Source: Flavobacteriaceae bacterium
GTDB lineage: Bacteria > Bacteroidota > Bacteroidia > Flavobacteriales > Flavobacteriaceae
DNA length: 38,766 bases
Direction of reading: 5' to 3'
Assembly (NCBI GenBank): GCA_017856235.1
Contig: JAFMFH010000009.1
Coordinates: 1-38,766, forward strand
The notes beneath the pieces are model-generated. The model searched no databases. It was not told the DNA's origin and saw only the letters and a program-made list of their open reading frames with translations. The position numbers and the translations under genes were made by a program. Position 1 is the stretch's first letter, and every line of letters starts with the position of its first letter. Shown in pieces: positions 10,010 through 19,523 of this stretch.

Positions 10010-10920
10010 AATTCTCTTGCTAATGGTAAAGTTGAACATCTAAAAAGACCTGACATTTTCGAAACATTTGAATAATCTACTTTTTCTACTAATACACCTT
10101 TTTCTTCAAGCCATTTATTAAGCCTTTTAAATTTTGAATGAGAAACAATTATTTCAGGGGAAATAACTAAAACATTTGATGTCAGCATAAAAGTCTCTTC
10201 TGGACTTGCAAGAAAGATGTTTTTTTTACCAAAAAGATTTATTAAATATTCAACATCTTCTTTTTTCTTAAAACCATCTGGACAAATAATTGCTTTATCC
10301 TTTGATATAGTCTGAAAACAGCAGTCTAAGTGAAGAGTATTTTCAAAAATATTTGTATTAGATTTTTTAATATCAATTGGGATTATTTCTTTGTTATTAA
10401 TTATTCTTTTTAGATAATCTATTGATTCGTTATTAGTTCTAGCTGTAATTAGAGAAGGATAATCTTCTTCAGAATAAGTGCCGATAAAAACTTTATCATT
10501 ATGGACTATTACATCACCTCCTTCTATATGCATAAATTCAGGAAGTTTAATTACTCCAACATTAAAATTTTTTATTATATCACTAATTCCATCAATTTCA
10601 TCTTGCCTATTTGGAACAATATTAGATTGAAAAAAAACATTTGAAATGACAAATCCAAGATCTCTGGTAAAAATTTGGTTACAATTATTTATATTTTTTG
10701 GCCTTATTACTTCGACATTATGCTTTAATAGTTTTTTTTTAAAGCTCTCTACTTCTTTTTTTAAATCCTTCTCAAATGGATATGAATTATTCTTGATATG
10801 ATAAAGGGACCTAGGATCAAAAGCGTCTGATTCAGAAGGTGGATTCCCAAGATTATCAGCTATTCCAAGGATGACAGTTTTTAAGCTAGAATATTCGTTT
10901 TCAATATTAATATTTAACAT
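10006..10920 (-). CDS. Dimethylarginine/arginine deiminase-like hydrolase
   Basis: This is a second member of the guanidine-modifying superfamily, 304 residues. The catalytic layout is visible: IFTRDLGF (83-90), HIEGGD (131-136), TLHLDCCF with the active-site His, and RCSTLPLAREL at the C-terminus with nucleophile Cys295. Proteins of this kind are annotated as dimethylarginine dimethylaminohydrolase or arginine deiminase-like; both release an amine or ammonia and leave citrulline. It overlaps the upstream ccsBA gene by one base (TAATG) and the downstream ctlX-like gene by four, so the three genes appear to form one transcript. The two hydrolases are distinct subfamilies, not a simple duplication. 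Confidence 0.83.
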   Translation of the reverse strand: MLNINIENEYSSLKTVILGIADNLGNPPSESDAFDPRSLYHIKNNSYPFEKDLKKEVESFKKKLLKHNVEVIRPKNINNCNQIFTRDLGFVISNVFFQSNIVPNRQDEIDGISDIIKNFNVGVIKLPEFMHIEGGDVIVHNDKVFIGTYSEEDYPSLITARTNNESIDYLKRIINNKEIIPIDIKKSNTNIFENTLHLDCCFQTISKDKAIICPDGFKKKEDVEYLINLFGKKNIFLASPEETFMLTSNVLVISPEIIVSHSKFKRLNKWLEEKGVLVEKVDYSNVSKMSGLFRCSTLPLAREL

Positions 10921-13900
10921 TAAAGTACTTTGGTTTTCTTATTTGCAAAATAAGAAATTAAGCCTAAAATGAATACAAAAACAGTTGAATAATAAACAAA
11001 GTCTGGAGTAATAACTTTTTCACCTGAAGCATATGAATGAAGTCCAACTAAATAAAAGTTTACTCCGAAATAAGTCATTATTATTGCTGCAAAAGAAATA
11101 ATACTCATTAGATTAAATAACCATTTATTATTTAACTTAGGTATAATTCTTAAATGAAGAACAGCAGTATAAATCATTATACTAATTAAGGCCCATGTTT
11201 CTTTTGGGTCCCATCCCCAATATCTACCCCAACTTTCATTTGCCCACATTCCTCCTAAAAAATTTCCTATAGTAAGCATTACTAAACCTATAGTAAGAGA
11301 TAACTCATTAACAATAGTAAGCTCCTCAAGTTTCCTAGATAGCACTTTTCTATTCTTCTTTGTGGCAATTATAGTTAAAATTAAGGTCACAATACCAAGT
11401 ATCATACCTATTGCAAATGGACCATAACTACCAACAATTACTGCAACATGGATCATTAACCAATAACTATCTAGAACTGGCTGAAGATTAGCTATAGAAG
11501 GATCAAGCCAATTCATGTGCGCAATTGAAAGAATAATTGATGCGACAAATGTAGATGAGGCAAGAGTAAAATATGATTTTCTTCCAAAAATAATTCCAAA
11601 TATTACAGTAGCCCAGGCAACAAAAATTATCGATTCATATGCATCACTCCAAGGAGCATGCCCCGCAATATACCACCTAGCTGCAAGGCCAATGGTATTA
11701 AAAACAAATAAAGTAATTATTAATGACTCAAAAAGCTTTATAAGATGACCTGTAAACTTATTGTCATAAAATATTTGAAAAATTAGAATTAAGAGCAAAC
11801 CAAGACCTGCAAAGAGATACCACTTATAAAGTCTGTTAAATATATCTGCTTTGTTGTATACAATCTCTGAATTGATTTTGAAGTCAGATGGCATTACTTT
11901 ACTTCCATATTTTTTCTGAAACCCTTTAATGCTCTCTAGAAGCTCTTCAGACTGTGTGTAGTCTTGGTCCTGTCTTGCTATTCTTAGTGTTTGAAAATAG
12001 AGGTTTAGAACATTATTAACATAGAGTGAATCAGCTCCTTCATAACTATGTTCGGAAATTTCAGGATAAGAAATCCATTTGTTATTAATATCATTTGGGA
12101 CAGGAAATATTCTCATAATTTTTCCCTCTAGAGCAGAATAAAGTAAATTTACTCTTCTGTCAAGCTCAATAATATCTTTTTCGATTTGAGACGGAACGTT
12201 AGACAAATATGCTTTTTCAAGGTTAGTTGCAAGTTTATAATTACCAAGTGAGTCAAAGAATGAAACTAGTGGTACTTTTTTTATTTTTTCATCTATCCCA
12301 ATTATTCTCTTTATGGTATCTCCTTTTTGTCCAGATTTTATATATATAATGGGAGCATTAAACCATACACCTGGATTGTCCATTATTGATACTAAAACTT
12401 GGTCTGAATTTAAACCATTATATGAGTTTGACTTACTGACTTTTCTCAATAATTCAGATGAGAAAGTATTAGCTGGTTTCATTCTTCCACCACTATCTTG
12501 AATGACAATCTTACCAAAACTATTCGCATGTTCCTTTGAAATCGAACTTTCTGAAATGATTGAATCAATGAATTCAGTTTTTAAGTTTACTTCTAAACTC
12601 TGGGCTGACAATACTGTTGACGATAAAAGAAAAACAACTAAAGAGGTCTTTTTATTTAGTTGCTTTGCAAGAAATTTAAATCTTGTATTCCCAACGAAGA
12701 ATATTGCAGTCATACTTATAAATAAAAGAAGGTATCCTGCGTAAGTAATAAATGTTCCCCAAAAATCGTCATTCACCGACAGAACTGTACCTTTTTCATC
12801 AGGGTCAAATGATGCTTGAAAAAAACGGTATCCCTTATGATTCAAAATATTATTCATAAAAATGTCGTAGTCAAATATTTTATCATCCTCAACAGTTACT
12901 TTACTTTTAAATGATGAATAGCTATTCTCAGTACCCGGATATTTTTCAGCAATAAAGTCGTTTAGCTTAATACTAAATGGAAGCTGCACCTCATCTGAAC
13001 CATATGATAGATAAAAATCAAGATCATCAATAGTTACCTTCTCAGGATTATTAACATACCCTCTACCACCCAATAGAGAGACATTTTTTGACTTTCCATT
13101 ATAATTTACCTTAAGGTATAGAGCATCCTCAACTTCCCTATCAGTTACCTCAGCATCTACAATCTCAAAAACTCCTCTTAATGCTGGTTCAGGAAACACA
13201 AACTGAAATCCAGGAATTTGATAAAGAGATCTTAATTCAAGTAGTTGTTTTTTATCTTTATTTAATTCTGCACTTTGTTGGTTAGACATAATAGTATAGA
13301 TTCCATCAAACGGAGATTCTATATAATATTCACCTGCTTCAGAAGTAATATTTATAGCACCTTTTTGGTAGTAATTAAATGAAAAAAGTATATTTTGTAT
13401 ACTAGTAATTTGCCCTTCCTTGATATAATGCTCTTGTCTATTTCCATCTAACGCCTCTACAAGTTTTATATATCTTTCTCCTGAGGGGTCAAGGACTAGA
13501 TCTTCAGTTACATTTTCTTTATAATCATGGTATGAAATGGAAAAATCTTTGGAGTAAAAATCATCATTTATAGTGAAGTCATTATTTACATGTTCAGATA
13601 AAAGAAGGTATGACTTTAATGTCTTTCTTTGAGGTACTCCATCTTCAACTCCATCTACAAAAACAGTTAAATATGTTTTTTCTGAAAGGTAAGTATTAGA
13701 TACATTATTTTCTCTTATGGGCATTACCCCCTCATCACCAATGTATCTAGTTACGAAAGCACCAAGTAAAATAAAGATAAAGGAAAGATGAAGTATTAAT
13801 ACAGATAATTTCTCTTTGCTCAGCAGATTATACTTCTTGATATTACCGATGAAATTGACCATAAGCAAAAGCATGAGAAGCTCAAACCACCAGGCATTGT

Positions 13901-14036
13901 AAATCCAAATTCTGGCAGCATCTGTAGAATACCAGCTCTCTAAAAAGGTACCAATACCCATTGCTACAGGAAACAAAATCAGCAAAATAAGCATAAATTT
14001 TGTGGAGAAAAGGAGTTGAAAAATTTTAGATATCAT
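10920..14036 (-). CDS. ccsBA: Fused cytochrome c biogenesis protein (ResB-CcsA)
   Basis: This 1038-residue membrane protein fuses both halves of the System II cytochrome c maturation machine, which exports heme and attaches it to apocytochromes outside the inner membrane. The N-terminal part is ResB-like: hydrophobic spans near residues 10-30, 45-62 and 78-96, then a long periplasmic domain. The C-terminal third is CcsA: ARWYIAGHAPWSDAYES, SYWLMIHV, the WWD heme-handling motif WGRYWGWDPKETWAL (about 936-950) and LVGLHSYASG with a further heme-binding His. A middle periplasmic region separates the halves. Fusion is common in Bacteroidota. It is the first gene of a minus-strand run leading into the two guanidine hydrolases. 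Confidence 0.92.
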   Translation of the reverse strand: MISKIFQLLFSTKFMLILLILFPVAMGIGTFLESWYSTDAARIWIYNAWWFELLMLLLMVNFIGNIKKYNLLSKEKLSVLILHLSFIFILLGAFVTRYIGDEGVMPIRENNVSNTYLSEKTYLTVFVDGVEDGVPQRKTLKSYLLLSEHVNNDFTINDDFYSKDFSISYHDYKENVTEDLVLDPSGERYIKLVEALDGNRQEHYIKEGQITSIQNILFSFNYYQKGAINITSEAGEYYIESPFDGIYTIMSNQQSAELNKDKKQLLELRSLYQIPGFQFVFPEPALRGVFEIVDAEVTDREVEDALYLKVNYNGKSKNVSLLGGRGYVNNPEKVTIDDLDFYLSYGSDEVQLPFSIKLNDFIAEKYPGTENSYSSFKSKVTVEDDKIFDYDIFMNNILNHKGYRFFQASFDPDEKGTVLSVNDDFWGTFITYAGYLLLFISMTAIFFVGNTRFKFLAKQLNKKTSLVVFLLSSTVLSAQSLEVNLKTEFIDSIISESSISKEHANSFGKIVIQDSGGRMKPANTFSSELLRKVSKSNSYNGLNSDQVLVSIMDNPGVWFNAPIIYIKSGQKGDTIKRIIGIDEKIKKVPLVSFFDSLGNYKLATNLEKAYLSNVPSQIEKDIIELDRRVNLLYSALEGKIMRIFPVPNDINNKWISYPEISEHSYEGADSLYVNNVLNLYFQTLRIARQDQDYTQSEELLESIKGFQKKYGSKVMPSDFKINSEIVYNKADIFNRLYKWYLFAGLGLLLILIFQIFYDNKFTGHLIKLFESLIITLFVFNTIGLAARWYIAGHAPWSDAYESIIFVAWATVIFGIIFGRKSYFTLASSTFVASIILSIAHMNWLDPSIANLQPVLDSYWLMIHVAVIVGSYGPFAIGMILGIVTLILTIIATKKNRKVLSRKLEELTIVNELSLTIGLVMLTIGNFLGGMWANESWGRYWGWDPKETWALISIMIYTAVLHLRIIPKLNNKWLFNLMSIISFAAIIMTYFGVNFYLVGLHSYASGEKVITPDFVYYSTVFVFILGLISYFANKKTKVL

Positions 14037-14133: not shown

Positions 14134-14634
14134 ATGGATTCATACAAGATAAGACTAAAGGATATTACCACATTTATTTTTGATGTGGATGGTGTTTTGA
14201 CTAATGGTAAAATTATTTACACTCATGACGGTAAAATTGATAGACAATTTTATGCAAAAGATGGATATGCAATCAAATACGCCATATCTAAAGGTTATAA
14301 AATAGCTATTATATCGGGGGGAATACAAGAAAATGTCAGAAAAAGATTGAACTCTCTTGGTGTTGAAGATGTATTTCTAAAAGCATTTAATAAAATTGAA
14401 GTTTTGGAAAAATTCATAAAAGAAAAAAAAATTGATTCAAAAAACATTTTATACATGGGAGATGATAATCCAGATATTGATGTTCTTAAAGTAGTTGGAA
14501 TTTCATCTTGCCCAAATGATGCCTCTGTTGACGTAAAATCAATTTGCGATTATATATCTCACAAAGATGGTGGTTTAGGCTGTGTAAGAGATGTAATTGA
14601 ACAGGTAATGAGAATTCATAACAAATGGATTTAA
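14134..14634 (+). CDS. kdsC: Kdo-8-phosphate phosphatase KdsC
   Basis: KdsC removes phosphate from Kdo-8-phosphate, the step after KdsA. At 166 residues it has the usual length of this cap-less HAD phosphatase. Visible motifs are FIFDVDGVLTNG with catalytic Asp17 and Asp19, the AIISGG segment (motif II), a Lys in VFLKAFNK (motif III) and YMGDDNPD (motif IV). It overlaps the following maf gene by ten bases and starts the plus-strand run that continues through the photolyase cluster. The family is clear. Confidence 0.93.
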   Translation: MDSYKIRLKDITTFIFDVDGVLTNGKIIYTHDGKIDRQFYAKDGYAIKYAISKGYKIAIISGGIQENVRKRLNSLGVEDVFLKAFNKIEVLEKFIKEKKIDSKNILYMGDDNPDIDVLKVVGISSCPNDASVDVKSICDYISHKDGGLGCVRDVIEQVMRIHNKWI

Positions 14635-15221
14635 TAAATAATTCCAATTACACCATAATTCTCGGATCAGGCTCAGCAAGAAGAAAAGAATTATTAGAAA
14701 TGACTGGAATTACTTTTCAGGTTAACTCAATCCCTGTTAATGAAAGTTTTCCAGAGCATCTTAAAGCTAAAGAAATAGCCGAATATATTGTGGAAAACAA
14801 AGCTGCTCCTTTTCAAAATATAGTTAAAAACAATCAAATAATAATTCTTGCTGATACTTTAGTATGGTTTGAAGATAAATGCTGGGGTAAACCAAAAGAC
14901 AAAAATGAGGCTAAGTCAATGTTAAAAATGATTGCAGGTAATTCTCACGATGTTATTACATCTGTAGGCTTTCTTACCAAAAAGAATTTTGAAATATTAA
15001 CTGAATCTACCAAAATAACTTATAAACTTCTAACTGAAAAAGAAATTGATTTTTATGTTGAAACTATAAATCCAATTGATAAAGCTGGAAGTTATGGGAT
15101 ACAAGATTGGATTGGAATGATAGGAGTAGAAAATATTAATGGAAGCTACACAAGTGTTTTAGGTCTTCCAGTACCTCAAGTAACAAACAAATTAACAGAA
15201 ATTATCAATGGAAATCTTTAA
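14625..15221 (+). CDS. maf: Maf-like nucleoside triphosphate pyrophosphatase
   Basis: Maf proteins hydrolyse non-canonical or certain normal nucleoside triphosphates to monophosphates, and some affect septum formation. The 198 residues include the N-terminal signature ILGSGSARRKELL (12-24), ILADTLVW with the catalytic Asp, GKPKDKNEAKSML, and DKAGSYGIQDWIG near residues 148-160. It overlaps kdsC by ten bases and the SRPBCC gene by fourteen. Which nucleotide this subgroup prefers (YhdE- or YceF-like) cannot be told from the sequence alone. Confidence 0.9.
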   Translation: MDLINNSNYTIILGSGSARRKELLEMTGITFQVNSIPVNESFPEHLKAKEIAEYIVENKAAPFQNIVKNNQIIILADTLVWFEDKCWGKPKDKNEAKSMLKMIAGNSHDVITSVGFLTKKNFEILTESTKITYKLLTEKEIDFYVETINPIDKAGSYGIQDWIGMIGVENINGSYTSVLGLPVPQVTNKLTEIINGNL

Positions 15222-15672
15222 GTTAAAATATTCACAAAAGCTACCCATAAGTTTGAATGAAGCATGGGATTTTTTATTATCGCCGAATAATTTGGAATTA
15301 ATAACTCCCAGGTCCATGGATTTCAAAATTACTGATTGGGATAATAAGAAAGCTTATCCAGGTCAAATTATTCAGTATACTGTAAAACCTATACTTGGAA
15401 TTAAAATTAATTGGGTAACTGAAATAACACAAGTGAAGACTAATGAATTCTTTATTGATGAGCAAAGGTTTGGTCCATATAGTTTTTGGCACCACAAACA
15501 CTTCATTAAAGAGATTAAAGACGGTGTTCTTATGGAAGATTTAATTCATTATAAATTACCACTAGGTCCTCTTGGAAAGCTTCTAAATTCTCTATTTATT
15601 AATTCTAAATTGAACAGTATTTTTAAATACAGACAACTAGAATTAATAAAAATATTTGGGGATTATAAATAA
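15208..15672 (+). CDS. SRPBCC (START/Bet v1-like) ligand-binding fold protein
   Basis: The 154-residue protein begins with the helix-grip pattern KYSQKLPISLNEAWDFLLSP followed by NLELITP, typical of SRPBCC proteins in which an incoming substrate would sit between a long helix and a curved sheet. Mid-protein GPYSFWHHKHFI and the tail FKYRQLELIKIFG resemble the group often labelled cell-division-inhibitor or cyclase-like. No catalytic role is established. Its overlap with maf (14 bases) and its TAATG junction with the SDR gene place it at the head of the photolyase cluster, where it may bind a small hydrophobic molecule. Confidence 0.72.
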   Translation: MEIFKLKYSQKLPISLNEAWDFLLSPNNLELITPRSMDFKITDWDNKKAYPGQIIQYTVKPILGIKINWVTEITQVKTNEFFIDEQRFGPYSFWHHKHFIKEIKDGVLMEDLIHYKLPLGPLGKLLNSLFINSKLNSIFKYRQLELIKIFGDYK

Positions 15673-16364
15673 TGAAAAACATATTACTAATAGGTGGCTC
15701 ATCAGGAATTGGTTATGAGCTATCAATGAAATTAGAGAATGATCACAAAGTATTTGTATCAACTCGAAATCCAGATAAGTTTTCTGGATCAAATATTACT
15801 GCAAATAGATTAGACTTAGATGAAGATTATAATGCTGATTGGCTTCCTGACAGCCTAGATGGATTCATCTATTTGCCAGGTACAATTAATTTAAGACCAT
15901 TTAAAGGTCTAACACCGTCAACTTTTATTGATGATTTTAATATTAACATATTAGGTTGTGTTAAAATTCTTCAGGCTGTTCTACCAAGGCTTCAATCCTC
16001 AGAAAGTGCTAGTGTAGTTTTCTTTAGCACAGTTGCAGTTAAAATGGGAATGCCATTTCATAGTTCTGTTTCTGCGTCAAAAGGTGCAATTGAAGGATTA
16101 ACTAGATCGCTTGCTGCTGAATTTGCACCAAAGATCAGGGTAAACGCTGTTGCTCCATCTATTATTAATACTCCAATGTCTGAAAAATTCCTTAATTCAG
16201 AAACTAAGATTGAAAATGCTCGAAATAGACATCCACTTAAAGAGATTGGATCAGCAAAAGATATTGCTGAAATAGTAAAGTTTTTACTTATTGATGAGAG
16301 CAAGTGGATGACTGGACAGATAATACCCTTTGATGGTGGTATGAGTTCTGTTAAAACTAATTAA
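15672..16364 (+). CDS. Short-chain dehydrogenase/reductase family protein lacking the catalytic Tyr
   Basis: This 230-residue SDR keeps the Rossmann nucleotide-binding motif GGSSGIG (8-14), Ser119 in VVFFSTVAV, Lys137 in SASKGAIEG and the C-terminal [10 protein letters not shown]. The position four residues before the Lys, normally the catalytic Tyr of YxxxK, is Val133. It may therefore bind NAD(P) without ordinary SDR chemistry or use another acid. The gene starts on the last base of the SRPBCC stop codon and its own stop (TAATG) is joined to the DUF2256 start, so it is coupled to the photolyase genes on both sides. The substrate is unknown. Confidence 0.85.
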
Positions 16365-16510
16365 TGAGAGGTGTAAAAAAATCTAACCTACCAAAAAAAA
16401 TATGCCCAACCTGTGGCCTAGAGTTTATTTGGAGAAAAAAATGGGAAAAAGATTGGGCTAAAGTTAAATATTGTAGCAAGACATGTCGAGTAAAAAAAAT
16501 ACAAGTATAG
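16364..16510 (+). CDS. DUF2256 small zinc-ribbon-like protein
   Basis: A 48-residue frame starts at the ATG that shares its A with the SDR stop codon. It reads [20 protein letters not shown] and then VKYCSKTCR, matching DUF2256: two Cys pairs (C14/C17 and C37/C41) with a basic Trp-rich stretch between them, likely a bound zinc. DUF2256 genes are commonly found beside cryptochrome/photolyase genes, as here. Its last 28 bases overlap the start of the CRY-DASH gene in another frame, so the two are probably translationally coupled. Function is unknown; nucleic-acid or protein binding is plausible. Confidence 0.88.
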
Positions 16511-17775
16511 TTTGGTTTAGAAATAATTTAAGAATTGAAGATAATTCTGCTCTTTATAATGCTGTAAATCAATCAGATAGAGTTATAGGATATGTAAATA
16601 TAGATCCAAGTAATTTTAAATATACACCGTATGGGTTCAAAAAAATAGAGAAGTACAGAGCTAAGTTTTTACTTGAGTCTATTTCAGACCTAAAGCAAAA
16701 CCTAAATAATTTAAATATCTCTCTTATTATTGATTATAATGAGATTAAAGAGTCATTTAAACCATTCATTTTGAAGTATGATGTTGATTCAATATATATG
16801 CAGAGAGAGTGGACAAGGGATGAACTAATTGAGGAAGATTCTATACCTAAAAATATAAATACACTAAAATATTTTGATCAGTTTTTATATTCTCCAGAAG
16901 ATGTAAAAAATATTTATGAAAATATTCCTAGAGGTTTTTCAAATTTTAGAAAAAAATGTGAAAAATACTTAAAGGTTAATAATCCAATATCAATTCCTAA
17001 GCCAATGATTGAGGATAATTTATTGGAAGATTTTTATGACATTCCAAATCTTAATGATTTAGGCTTTGAAGAATTTGAGGTTAATGAAAATTCAGCTTTC
17101 AAGTTTAAAGGAGGTGAAACTGCTGGCAAGTCTAGAGTTGATGATTATTTTTTTAAAACAAAAAATGTATCTAAGTACAAGCATACTCGTAACGGCTTAC
17201 TTGGAAAAAACTACAGTTCAAAATTTTCATCATGGCTTGCAAATGGATCATTATCTGCTAGATACATTTATAATAAGCTTATGGAATATGAAAATGATAT
17301 AGAAAAAAATGAATCTACCTATTGGTTGTTTTTTGAACTTCTTTGGAGAGATTTCTTTAAATATGTTTCAATGCAACATCGAAATAAGTTTTTTAGCAAA
17401 GATGGAATATATGGGATTGAAAAGGAATGGTCACAAGAAAAATCAAAGATTAAAAGCTGGATAAATGGAGAAACTAAAGAAAAATTTGTAAATGCAAATA
17501 TGATAGAACTTGCATCTACTGGATTCATGTCAAACAGAGGCAGACAAAATGTAGCAAACTATTTAACAAAAGAGTTGAAAATTGACTGGAGAATAGGTGC
17601 AGAATATTTTGAAGCATTTCTAATTGATTATGATGTTCATAGCAATTATGGTAATTGGCTTTATAATGCAGGGATTGGGAATGACTCAATGCCATTTAGA
17701 AAGTTTAATCCTACTCTTCAATCTGAAAGATATGATCCTAATAAAGATTATGAAAACACTTGGTTAAATGGATAG
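16483..17775 (+). CDS. DASH-family cryptochrome/photolyase
   Basis: The 430-residue flavoprotein has an N-terminal antenna-type alpha/beta domain ([20 protein letters not shown]) and a C-terminal FAD-binding helical domain with [62 protein letters not shown] and [20 protein letters not shown]. The TRNGLLG-YSSKFS-WL-NG segment is typical of CRY-DASH. Such proteins repair cyclobutane dimers, mainly in single-stranded DNA, and may sense blue light. It overlaps DUF2256 by 28 bases and the next gene by eight. The DASH assignment is from conserved motifs, not a tree. Confidence 0.92.
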
Positions 17776-19255
17776 CAAATGTTGTATAATTTTTCCTAAT
17801 CAATTATTCAGAGAAAGTATATTTATTGATTCTGATTATAAAATTTTTCTTGTTGAAGAGGAGCTTTTCTTTAATCAATACAATTTTCACAAACAAAAAA
17901 TATCATTTCACAGATCATCCATGAAGTTTTATGAAGACTATCTCATAAAAAAAGGATTAGATGTTAGTTATATAAACTCTTATGAAAAGGAGTCTAATAT
18001 TATTGAATTAATTAAAAATATCAATAGTCAAGGATACAAAAAAATCGAGATTTATGATCCAGTTGATTATCTTTTAGACAGAAGAATAAAGAGAGTTTCT
18101 AAAGAATTAAAGATTGATATGGTAGTCCATGAATCAAAGTTATTCATTAATTCTTCCGAAGAATTAAGATATTTTTTCAAAGATTCAAAGCAAAAATTTT
18201 TTCAAACTTCATTCTACAAATCAGAAAGAAAAAAAAGAAACATACTTGTAAATTCAAGTGGAGAACCAGAAGGCGGAGAATGGACATACGATATACAAAA
18301 CAGAAAAAAATTCCCCAAAGATAAAATCCCCCCAGTAATTAAGAATCCAAGAAAAAATAGTTATGTCATTGAATCTGAAAAATATGTTGAAAAGAATTTT
18401 AATAATAATTTTGGATCACTTGGCTTATTTAATTACCCGACTACATATGATGAGGCTGATCAATGGATAAATCAATTTTTAAATGATAGATTTTTAGAGT
18501 TTGGGGATTATGAAGATGCAATTATCAAAGATGAACTCACTTTAAACCATAGTATTTTAAGCCCTTTACTAAATGTAGGTCTAATAAACATCAAAGACTT
18601 GTTAGATAGCATTATTGAATTCTCCAAAATAAATGATATTCCAATTAATTCAACAGAAGGATTTATTAGACAACTTATTGGGTGGAGGGAGTTTATTAGA
18701 GGTATATATATAGTTAAGGGTAATTTTGAAAGAACAAATAATTTTTGGGGTTTCAAAAGTAAAATTCCTAAATCATTTTATAACGGAACAACAGGAATTG
18801 AACCTTTAGACTCTTCGATAAAGAAAGTCAGTAACACTGGTTATATTCATCATATAGAAAGACTAATGATTGTAGGGAATTTTATGTTATTATGTGAGTT
18901 TGATCCAGATGAAGTATATAAATGGTTTATGGAGGTTTCTATAGATTCGTTTGACTGGGTAATGGTTCCAAATGTATATGGAATGAGTCAATTTGCAGAT
19001 GGAGGATTAATGTCCACGAAACCATATATAAGTAGCAGTAATTACATATCTAAAATGAGTGATTATAAAAAAGGTAACTGGAGTGAAATATGGGATGGTT
19101 TATTTTGGAGGTTTATGGACAAACAAAGAAATTTTTTTACTAAAAATCCAAGATTAAGAATGCTGATAAATACATTTGATAAGATGGATATAAATAAAAA
19201 AGAAAAACATTTGTTAAATGCTGAGAATTTTTTAAACAAAATACACAATGAATAA
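17768..19255 (+). CDS. Cryptochrome/photolyase-related protein (DPRP family), without usual Fe-S ligands
   Basis: This 495-residue protein belongs to the deoxyribodipyrimidine photolyase-related group that includes prokaryotic (6-4) photolyases such as PhrB. Conserved parts are IGWREFIRGIY, HHIERLMIVGNFMLL, NVYGMSQFADGGLM and TKPYISSSNYISKMSDY. In Fe-S members four Cys bind a [4Fe-4S] cluster: one before HHI-RLM, then CxxC just after MSDY, and one further on. Here the first region reads TTGIEPLD and the second SDYKKGNWSEIWDGLFW, a shortened loop with no Cys. C376 (MLLCEF) is not at a usual ligand position. It likely binds FAD and repairs or senses light damage without the cluster. It overlaps both neighbours by eight bases. 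Confidence 0.88.
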   Translation: MDSKCCIIFPNQLFRESIFIDSDYKIFLVEEELFFNQYNFHKQKISFHRSSMKFYEDYLIKKGLDVSYINSYEKESNIIELIKNINSQGYKKIEIYDPVDYLLDRRIKRVSKELKIDMVVHESKLFINSSEELRYFFKDSKQKFFQTSFYKSERKKRNILVNSSGEPEGGEWTYDIQNRKKFPKDKIPPVIKNPRKNSYVIESEKYVEKNFNNNFGSLGLFNYPTTYDEADQWINQFLNDRFLEFGDYEDAIIKDELTLNHSILSPLLNVGLINIKDLLDSIIEFSKINDIPINSTEGFIRQLIGWREFIRGIYIVKGNFERTNNFWGFKSKIPKSFYNGTTGIEPLDSSIKKVSNTGYIHHIERLMIVGNFMLLCEFDPDEVYKWFMEVSIDSFDWVMVPNVYGMSQFADGGLMSTKPYISSSNYISKMSDYKKGNWSEIWDGLFWRFMDKQRNFFTKNPRLRMLINTFDKMDINKKEKHLLNAENFLNKIHNE

Positions 19256-19523
19256 TTTTAATTTGAGAGAGATCGATAGAATTATAGAAATGGCATGGGA
19301 AGATAGAACTCCATTTGAGGCTATTTTTAATCAATTCGATATAAACGAGAAGGAACTGATAAGTCTTATGCGAAATAATTTAAAAAGAAATAGTTTTAAA
19401 CTTTGGAGAGAGAGAGTCTCTGGAAGAAAAACTAAACATTCTGTTTTAAGAGAAAATAGTATTGATAGATTTAAATGTAATTTACAGAGAAGTATATCAA
19501 ATAATAAAATATCTAAAAGATAG
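19248..19523 (+). CDS. TIGR03643 family protein
   Basis: The 91-residue protein begins NFNLREIDRIIEMAWEDRTP, continues with FDINEKELISLMRNNLKRNS and FKLWRERVSGRKTKH, and ends with a basic tail. This matches the small TIGR03643 family, which often accompanies photolyase-type genes. The N-terminal part looks helix-turn-helix-like and the second half is strongly basic, so nucleic-acid binding is possible, but no function is established. It overlaps the photolyase-related gene by eight bases and is the last gene of the cluster; its stop is one base from the end of convergent murA. Confidence 0.82.
   Translation: MNNFNLREIDRIIEMAWEDRTPFEAIFNQFDINEKELISLMRNNLKRNSFKLWRERVSGRKTKHSVLRENSIDRFKCNLQRSISNNKISKR

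Follow-up and report, generated by a model that had tools for sequence, protein, structure and literature searches.

A compact flavobacterial operon that joins two photolyase-family genes to four conserved companions and probably serves defence against light damage

Why should two photolyase-family genes share one tightly overlapping run with a ligand-binding-like protein, an oxidoreductase and two small proteins? The question is raised by positions 15208 to 19523 of contig JAFMFH010000009.1 from a Flavobacteriaceae bacterium (assembly GCA_017856235.1), of which the whole 38,766 nt stretch analysed is called the window here. An earlier note, made from the sequence alone, described this part of the window as six same-strand genes with every junction overlapping by 1 to 28 bases, and proposed a light-damage or light-signalling module. 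The six genes were confirmed as follows:

15208..15672, + strand: SRPBCC-fold ligand-binding-like protein, 154 aa (open reading frame (ORF), AlphaFold and Foldseek)
15672..16364, + strand: SDR-fold oxidoreductase, 230 aa, with the canonical Tyr replaced by Val (PF13561/PF00106)
16364..16510, + strand: DUF2256 protein, 48 aa, CxxC...CxxxC, putative zinc-binding (PF10013)
16483..17775, + strand: CRY-DASH cryptochrome/photolyase, 430 aa (TIGR02765)
17768..19255, + strand: DPRP (prokaryotic 6-4 photolyase family) protein, 495 aa, without the four iron-sulfur (Fe-S) cysteines (PF04244)
19248..19523, + strand: DUF2805/TIGR03643 protein, 91 aa, basic (PF10985, TIGR03643)

Throughout, SDR (short-chain dehydrogenase/reductase) means the product of the second gene in this list, at 15672..16364. 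In the ORF list the five junctions, from SRPBCC to DUF2805, overlap by 1, 1, 28, 8 and 8 bases.

We consider it probable that these genes form a streamlined light-damage operon, in which DNA repair is combined with the handling of light-oxidised or redox-active small molecules, and which serves damage defence and not signalling. The module is a variant of the known light-induced photolyase operon, and DPRPs without an Fe-S cluster are already known. Conservation was followed in a genus set of 25 genomes and an order set of 216 genomes. An SDR orthologue (72-100% identity) was present in 19 of the 25 genus genomes, and in 18 of these 19 loci, the window included, the order Maf-SRPBCC-SDR-DUF2256-CRY-DASH-DPRP-DUF2805-convergent gene is kept, where Maf is the upstream neighbour and the convergent gene, which we take to be MurA-like, closes the unit downstream. 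The nineteenth locus, in G226 (metagenome-assembled genome SI034_bin14, locus L124), has lost both photolyases through one deletion of about 2.6 kb, equivalent to window positions 16530-19171, which joined the CRY-DASH start to the DPRP tail (L124:9280-9400); no FAD_binding_7 match was found anywhere in this 82% complete draft. SRPBCC, SDR, DUF2256 and DUF2805 are all still open in G226. Against the sister locus L250 their ratios of nonsynonymous to synonymous change (dN/dS) were 0.051, 0.066, 0.155 and 0.036, respectively, and those of the flanking Maf and MurA genes were 0.112 and 0.048 (NG86; 13 chosen pairs were compared in all, with dS high or undefined in many). Because G226 keeps the four companions open without either photolyase, they do not appear to be purely photolyase subunits; the loss, seen in one genome and by a deletion that may be recent, speaks suggestively against a role limited to that of subunit or cofactor supplier for these two photolyases.

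When the window was compared with L240, L242, L243 and L250, dN was lower for SRPBCC (0.08-0.10) than for SDR (0.15-0.19) and the photolyases (0.18-0.23); with L238, which is closer to the window, the difference was slight (0.083 vs 0.112). Loss of the whole module from the six SDR-less genus genomes was considered and rejected. In five of these drafts (G222, G223, G225, G229 and G237) the MurA-like gene, which is expected to be essential, has no orthologue either (the best match in G225 is 24% identical), so the locus itself is probably missing from them and no losses were counted. In the sixth, G244, DPRP and CRY-DASH are present and the contig ends there.

Across the order, SRPBCC relatives were found in 143 genomes, photolyase matches (TIGR02765 profile, E 1e-3, which picks up other class I types too) in 134, and DUF2805 in 93. 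SRPBCC and photolyase occurred together in 123 genomes, SRPBCC only in 20, photolyase only in 11, and neither in 62 (Fisher p 4.5e-25, uncorrected for kinship). The small TIGR03643/DUF2805 protein had been said in the earlier note to accompany photolyases, and 92 of the 93 DUF2805 genomes indeed have a photolyase match, while 42 of the 134 photolyase genomes are without DUF2805. Neighbourhoods were read at 60 order-wide loci, hand-picked for genus spread from the 143 genomes with an SRPBCC match, and at 80 named loci, the best of at least 586 confirmed in a scan of named genomes and hence a set biased to close relatives. All 60 were counted, including L078 and L083, for which an initial clustering had returned no ORF of the SRPBCC family; L062 (of the 60) and L162 (of the 80) carry an identical SRPBCC protein. 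In the genus count L123/L247 and L124/L239, which lie on contigs of equal length (51330 and 27256 bases), were taken as the same loci, each counted once. A photolyase-family gene lay within 2.5 kb of SRPBCC at 25 of the 60 and 64 of the 80 loci, and SDR at 16 and 60, respectively. A photolyase, SDR, carotenoid, MerR-B12 or redox-defence gene lay within this distance at 48 of 60 and 70 of 80. The earlier note had named rarity of the SRPBCC and SDR genes beside photolyases as the outcome that would speak against it; such rarity was not what the survey returned, and its view that the six genes belong together as a light-damage set is borne out by these counts and by the 18 genus loci.

The neighbourhoods also indicate from what the window operon may derive. 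An eight-gene form, SRPBCC-SDR-class I photolyase-DUF2256-CRY-DASH-DPRP-second photolyase-DUF2805, is carried by other flavobacteria at six named loci (L131, L145, L159, L167, L168 and L185), and L125, L129 and L138 carry SRPBCC-SDR-class I photolyase-DPRP-DUF2805, without DUF2256 and CRY-DASH. The window operon equals the eight-gene form minus the class I photolyase and the second photolyase, and on gene content it looks like a reduced version of it. An extra photolyase is encoded elsewhere in 11 of the 25 genus genomes, and both of those checked are of the second type, to which they are 42% identical; the window's own genome (92% complete) has only the two window photolyases by FAD_binding_7. 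Longer islands, in Winogradskyella and Polaribacter for example, add GTP cyclohydrolase I, small proteins that are presumably Lacal2735-like, glutathione peroxidase and TspO. In further families SRPBCC stands beside a MerR protein with a B12-binding domain, SOUL-MsrA, phytoene synthase, lycopene cyclase or flavin reductase (partners were named by Pfam on one representative per family); another island gene is presumably crtZ, for which Pfam gave no match. The glutathione peroxidase, TspO, MsrA and carotenoid genes in these islands point to photo-oxidative defence.

Two other families were met near SRPBCC. A SOUL heme-binding domain fused to MsrA (L098:7452-8579 and relatives) is encoded within 2.5 kb of it at 8 of the 60 loci. 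A DUF429-like protein (L084:7410-8060 and relatives) is encoded within the same distance at 13 of the 60, mostly directly after SRPBCC, and is then often followed by DPRP, photolyase or glutathione peroxidase.

The SDR scored 127.9 bits with PF13561 and 94.4 bits with PF00106 and has the Gly-rich NAD(P) motif GGSSGIG at its N-terminus. The classical Ser-Tyr-Lys set is incomplete, as the earlier note had recognised: Ser, His130 and Lys137 are kept, and Val occupies the Tyr position at Lys-4. The Tyr was missing from all 98 SDR rows of the alignment (A2; 95 distinct, 19 from the genus), with Val in 76, Ile in 20 and Thr in 2, and Ser, Lys and the His at Lys-7 were kept. These rows were admitted at a score of 180 or more with a profile made from this very group, which means that the motif is not independent of membership; of 101 rows above 50 bits three were left out, namely two fragments without the relevant columns and one ordinary SDR with Tyr. 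As a control, other SDRs from the genus were inspected, and 11 of 11 keep the Tyr. Among the best 3 of 3936 plasmid records with some SDR match, a Mesorhizobium plasmid carries a Tyr-less SDR in the company of DUF1365, CFA-type, fasciclin, MsrPQ, DPRP, photolyase and TspO genes, where a single gene separates it from DPRP. On a Methylobacterium plasmid the Tyr-less SDR overlaps the DPRP gene, and a DUF2256 ORF lies about 1 kb away on the opposite strand. Judged by these alignments, the missing Tyr marks an SDR subfamily occurring in two phyla. FabI-type enoyl reductases carry their Tyr at the Lys-7 position, where the Tyr-less SDR has His, and the flavin and biliverdin reductase BLVRB is a precedent for an SDR-like enzyme that works without the Tyr at Lys-4.

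The SRPBCC window protein had no Pfam or NCBIfam match at E 0.01, and a relative in L065 reached Polyketide_cyc at 23.1 bits, under the cut-off of 23.4 (family alignments A1 and A4). Its AlphaFold model (mean predicted local distance difference test (pLDDT) 94.6) has an SRPBCC-type helix-grip fold, which Foldseek matched with probability 1.00 to 2d4r, 3uid and the TcmN aromatase/cyclase; the fold search reached the general superfamily only and gave no ligand hint. The SRPBCC profile matched solved-structure sequences weakly, best with 7svj (E 0.01) and also with the first 122 residues of 3oh8, annotated as a SulA-family epimerase (E 0.025). Plasmid records yielded no SRPBCC match.

CRY-DASH scored 445.8 bits with TIGR02765 against a curated cut-off of 317.05, and its best solved relative is 6kii (E 5.7e-113); the family carries out light-driven repair of cyclobutane pyrimidine dimers (CPDs) on single-stranded DNA. 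DPRP scored 171 bits with PF04244 and aligned to PhrB (5kcm, E 2.7e-75), and the four columns that hold the Fe-S cysteines in PhrB read P,-,-,E, so that it lacks the cysteines by which Fe-S bacterial cryptochrome/photolyase (FeS-BCP) proteins are recognised. Of 44 DPRP rows, 14 have all four cysteines and 30 none (29 distinct, 11 from outside the genus, the window among the 30). A DPRP of either kind can stand in the place between CRY-DASH and second photolyase, as in L145 and L131. Members without the cluster are known as subgroup M of the prokaryotic (6-4) photolyases, with PromaPL (PMC9178010, PMC9426592); the window protein resembles them in being a DPRP without the four cysteines.

The DUF2256 protein scored 68.1 bits with PF10013, its four Cys are invariant in a 10-sequence alignment (A5), and the domain has been assigned to the TRASH zinc-finger clan (PMC4047054). 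The DUF2805 protein scored 117.3 bits with PF10985 and 116 bits with TIGR03643 (cut-off 66.55). Its AlphaFold model (pLDDT 74.5) has four predicted helices and a low-confidence tail, and the fold search gave no match at E 0.001 or better (best E 3.7), so a helix-turn-helix reading stays a guess. For DUF2805 the literature gave only metagenome correlations with translation domains (PMC3597751). On an Acinetobacter nosocomialis plasmid (L255:7001-8932) DUF2805 lies beside fragmented DUF2256 and DPRP reading frames.

Is the setting one of light? A microbial rhodopsin gene (G000:C17:35306-35962) and a CrtI-type desaturase are encoded in the window's own genome, which makes a sunlit life likely for this sea-surface bacterium. 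The signalling half of the earlier proposal found no support. No photosensor or regulator is present among the module genes, and no MerR with a B12-binding domain was found in the 92% complete genome (the search did not extend to LOV, BLUF or other sensors); the sole MerR_1 match, an ORF of 112 residues, is too short to include a B12 domain, unlike LitR/CarH.

Three described systems resemble the module. The LitR/LOV light-induced region of Pseudomonas holds phrB, the SDR PME6630, an FAD oxidoreductase and ufaM; there is also a folM-folE-folX unit, and cryptochrome-like and pterin units respond to light too (PMC9758184). Like the window, it has photolyase and SDR in one region, with starts that overlap or lie close to the preceding stops; it differs in that SRPBCC, DUF2256 and DUF2805 are not named in the passages that describe it and in that the window genome has no B12-type MerR, and the SDRs are likened by family only. 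The RpoE/ChrR singlet-oxygen regulon of Rhodobacter includes phrA, the SDR RSP_1087, RSP_1090/1091 and folE2 (PMC7074977), so that one photo-oxidative response brings together a photolyase, an SDR and a GTP cyclohydrolase, comparable with the genes at the Mesorhizobium Tyr-less SDR locus. The six window genes, in contrast, include no sigma or anti-sigma factor, and here too the SDR is likened by family only. The Pseudomonas and Rhodobacter sets contain a similar kind of mixture and are published parallels for the proposed defence role. The UV-B operon of Synechococcus PCC 7335 likewise has two overlapping photolyase-family genes in one operon, but nothing besides: one encodes a photolyase, the other a bifunctional CPD/(6-4)-like enzyme, and companions are absent (PMC9649867). 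In a literature search largely without subscription papers and without preprints, no title or abstract opening described the module or the Tyr-less SDR.

The run of overlapping genes begins two genes earlier than the earlier note had it:

14134..14634, + strand: HAD-family phosphatase (PF08282, 49.7 bits)
14625..15221, + strand: Maf nucleotide pyrophosphatase (PF02545, 163 bits)

The HAD phosphatase and Maf genes overlap by 10 bases and Maf and SRPBCC by 14, so the overlapping run comprises eight genes and not six, and the HAD phosphatase gene is the probable start of the transcription unit. Maf adjoins SRPBCC in 19 of 19 genus loci and lies within 2.5 kb of it in only 2 of the 80 named loci, both of this genus; it is an upstream neighbour rather than a member of the light module. 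By a rough ORF call (at least 85 aa, DUF2256 admitted by hand), 16 of the 24 co-directional pairs in the window overlap, 7 within the eight-gene run and 9 of 17 elsewhere. As the latter also overlap, tight packing is ordinary in this compact genome, and the weight beyond chance comes from conserved gene order, not from overlap. Upstream, positions 10920-14036 (- strand) form a single 1038-residue ORF, which we take to resemble a fused two-part cytochrome c biogenesis protein.

Could streamlining simply have fused unrelated neighbours, leaving the overlaps without meaning? The packing elsewhere in the window and the inclusion of Maf and the HAD phosphatase in the run would fit, yet these genes stand together in many genera whose flanking genes differ, and two alphaproteobacteria have a member of the SDR subfamily close to photolyase-family genes. 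The neighbourhood survey thus disfavours this explanation, which we regard as very improbable. It is possible, though unlikely, that SDR and SRPBCC instead make or deliver a folate, pterin or other antenna, or FAD, for the neighbouring photolyases. GTP cyclohydrolase I, found within 2.5 kb of SRPBCC at 13 of the 80 named loci (1 of the 60 order-wide), favours a pterin link in relatives, and such a supply would also agree with a formate-tetrahydrofolate ligase gene after the photolyase in L065, a flavin reductase family near SRPBCC at 8 of the 60 loci and the light-linked folM-folE-folX of Pseudomonas. However, the window module has no FolE, SRPBCC lies by carotenoid genes with no photolyase in the stretch read at several loci (e.g. 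L101 and L117), and in G226 the companions have stayed open, with low dN/dS for SRPBCC and SDR, without photolyases to supply.

A repair complex, in which SRPBCC, SDR and the two small proteins would attach to the photolyases and guide them to lesions or to DNA or RNA that is single-stranded or folded, seems doubtful. It would account for the translation coupling and fixed order, for the basic DUF2805 and its near-constant co-occurrence with photolyase matches, and for DUF2256 near DPRP on the Methylobacterium and Acinetobacter plasmids too; the four companions nevertheless persist in G226, where FAD_binding_7 was not found in the incomplete draft, and partners and order differ between genera. 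We also entertain, as a speculative and rather improbable reading, that the SDR represents a Ser-His-Lys-centred cross-phylum subfamily acting as an NAD(P)H electron donor, which would keep the photolyase flavin or a free pool reduced while SRPBCC carried the ligand.

Several observations weigh against a light-damage operon as well. At 35 of the 60 order-wide loci no photolyase is encoded within 2.5 kb of SRPBCC, and 20 of the 143 SRPBCC genomes, some of them incomplete drafts, gave no photolyase match of the TIGR02765 type, so that the tie of SRPBCC to photolyases is not a strict one; SDR is near it in just 16 of the 60. No photolyase-family gene was found within 7 kb of DUF2805 on three of the four plasmids examined (of 43 records with a match), or within 6 kb of the SDR copy on a Spirosoma plasmid. 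The fusion to Maf and the HAD phosphatase suggests constitutive rather than light-driven expression in the genus, and the roles of the six proteins (expression, ligand, activity) are predicted from sequence and model comparison.

On the reading that we hold probable, the locus is the streamlined form of an ancestral flavobacterial light-damage operon and would be read as one translation-coupled unit, with co-transcription beginning at the HAD phosphatase gene. In it, CRY-DASH and the Fe-S-less DPRP would undo UV lesions in DNA with light, namely CPDs and, by family, 6-4 products, and the small, basic or Cys-rich DUF2256 and DUF2805 proteins may assist nucleic-acid binding or repair. SRPBCC would bind a light-oxidised or redox-active small molecule, such as a flavin, pterin, tetrapyrrole, quinone, oxidised lipid or carotenoid, which the Tyr-less SDR would reduce or bind with NAD(P)H, and in sunlight their action may protect the cell or its flavoenzymes.

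Photolyases are textbook repair enzymes, and their genomic surroundings in bacteria have hardly been studied in the searchable literature. In the module four companions that have not been studied form a compact and conserved set, and one of them has an atypical active site that occurs in two phyla; the natural loss of both photolyases with the companions kept is an added handle on their role. It raises the questions of what a sunlit cell needs beyond the mending of its DNA and of what keeps the photolyase flavin reduced; an SDR that did act as the donor would fill the long-missing role of electron source for photolyases.

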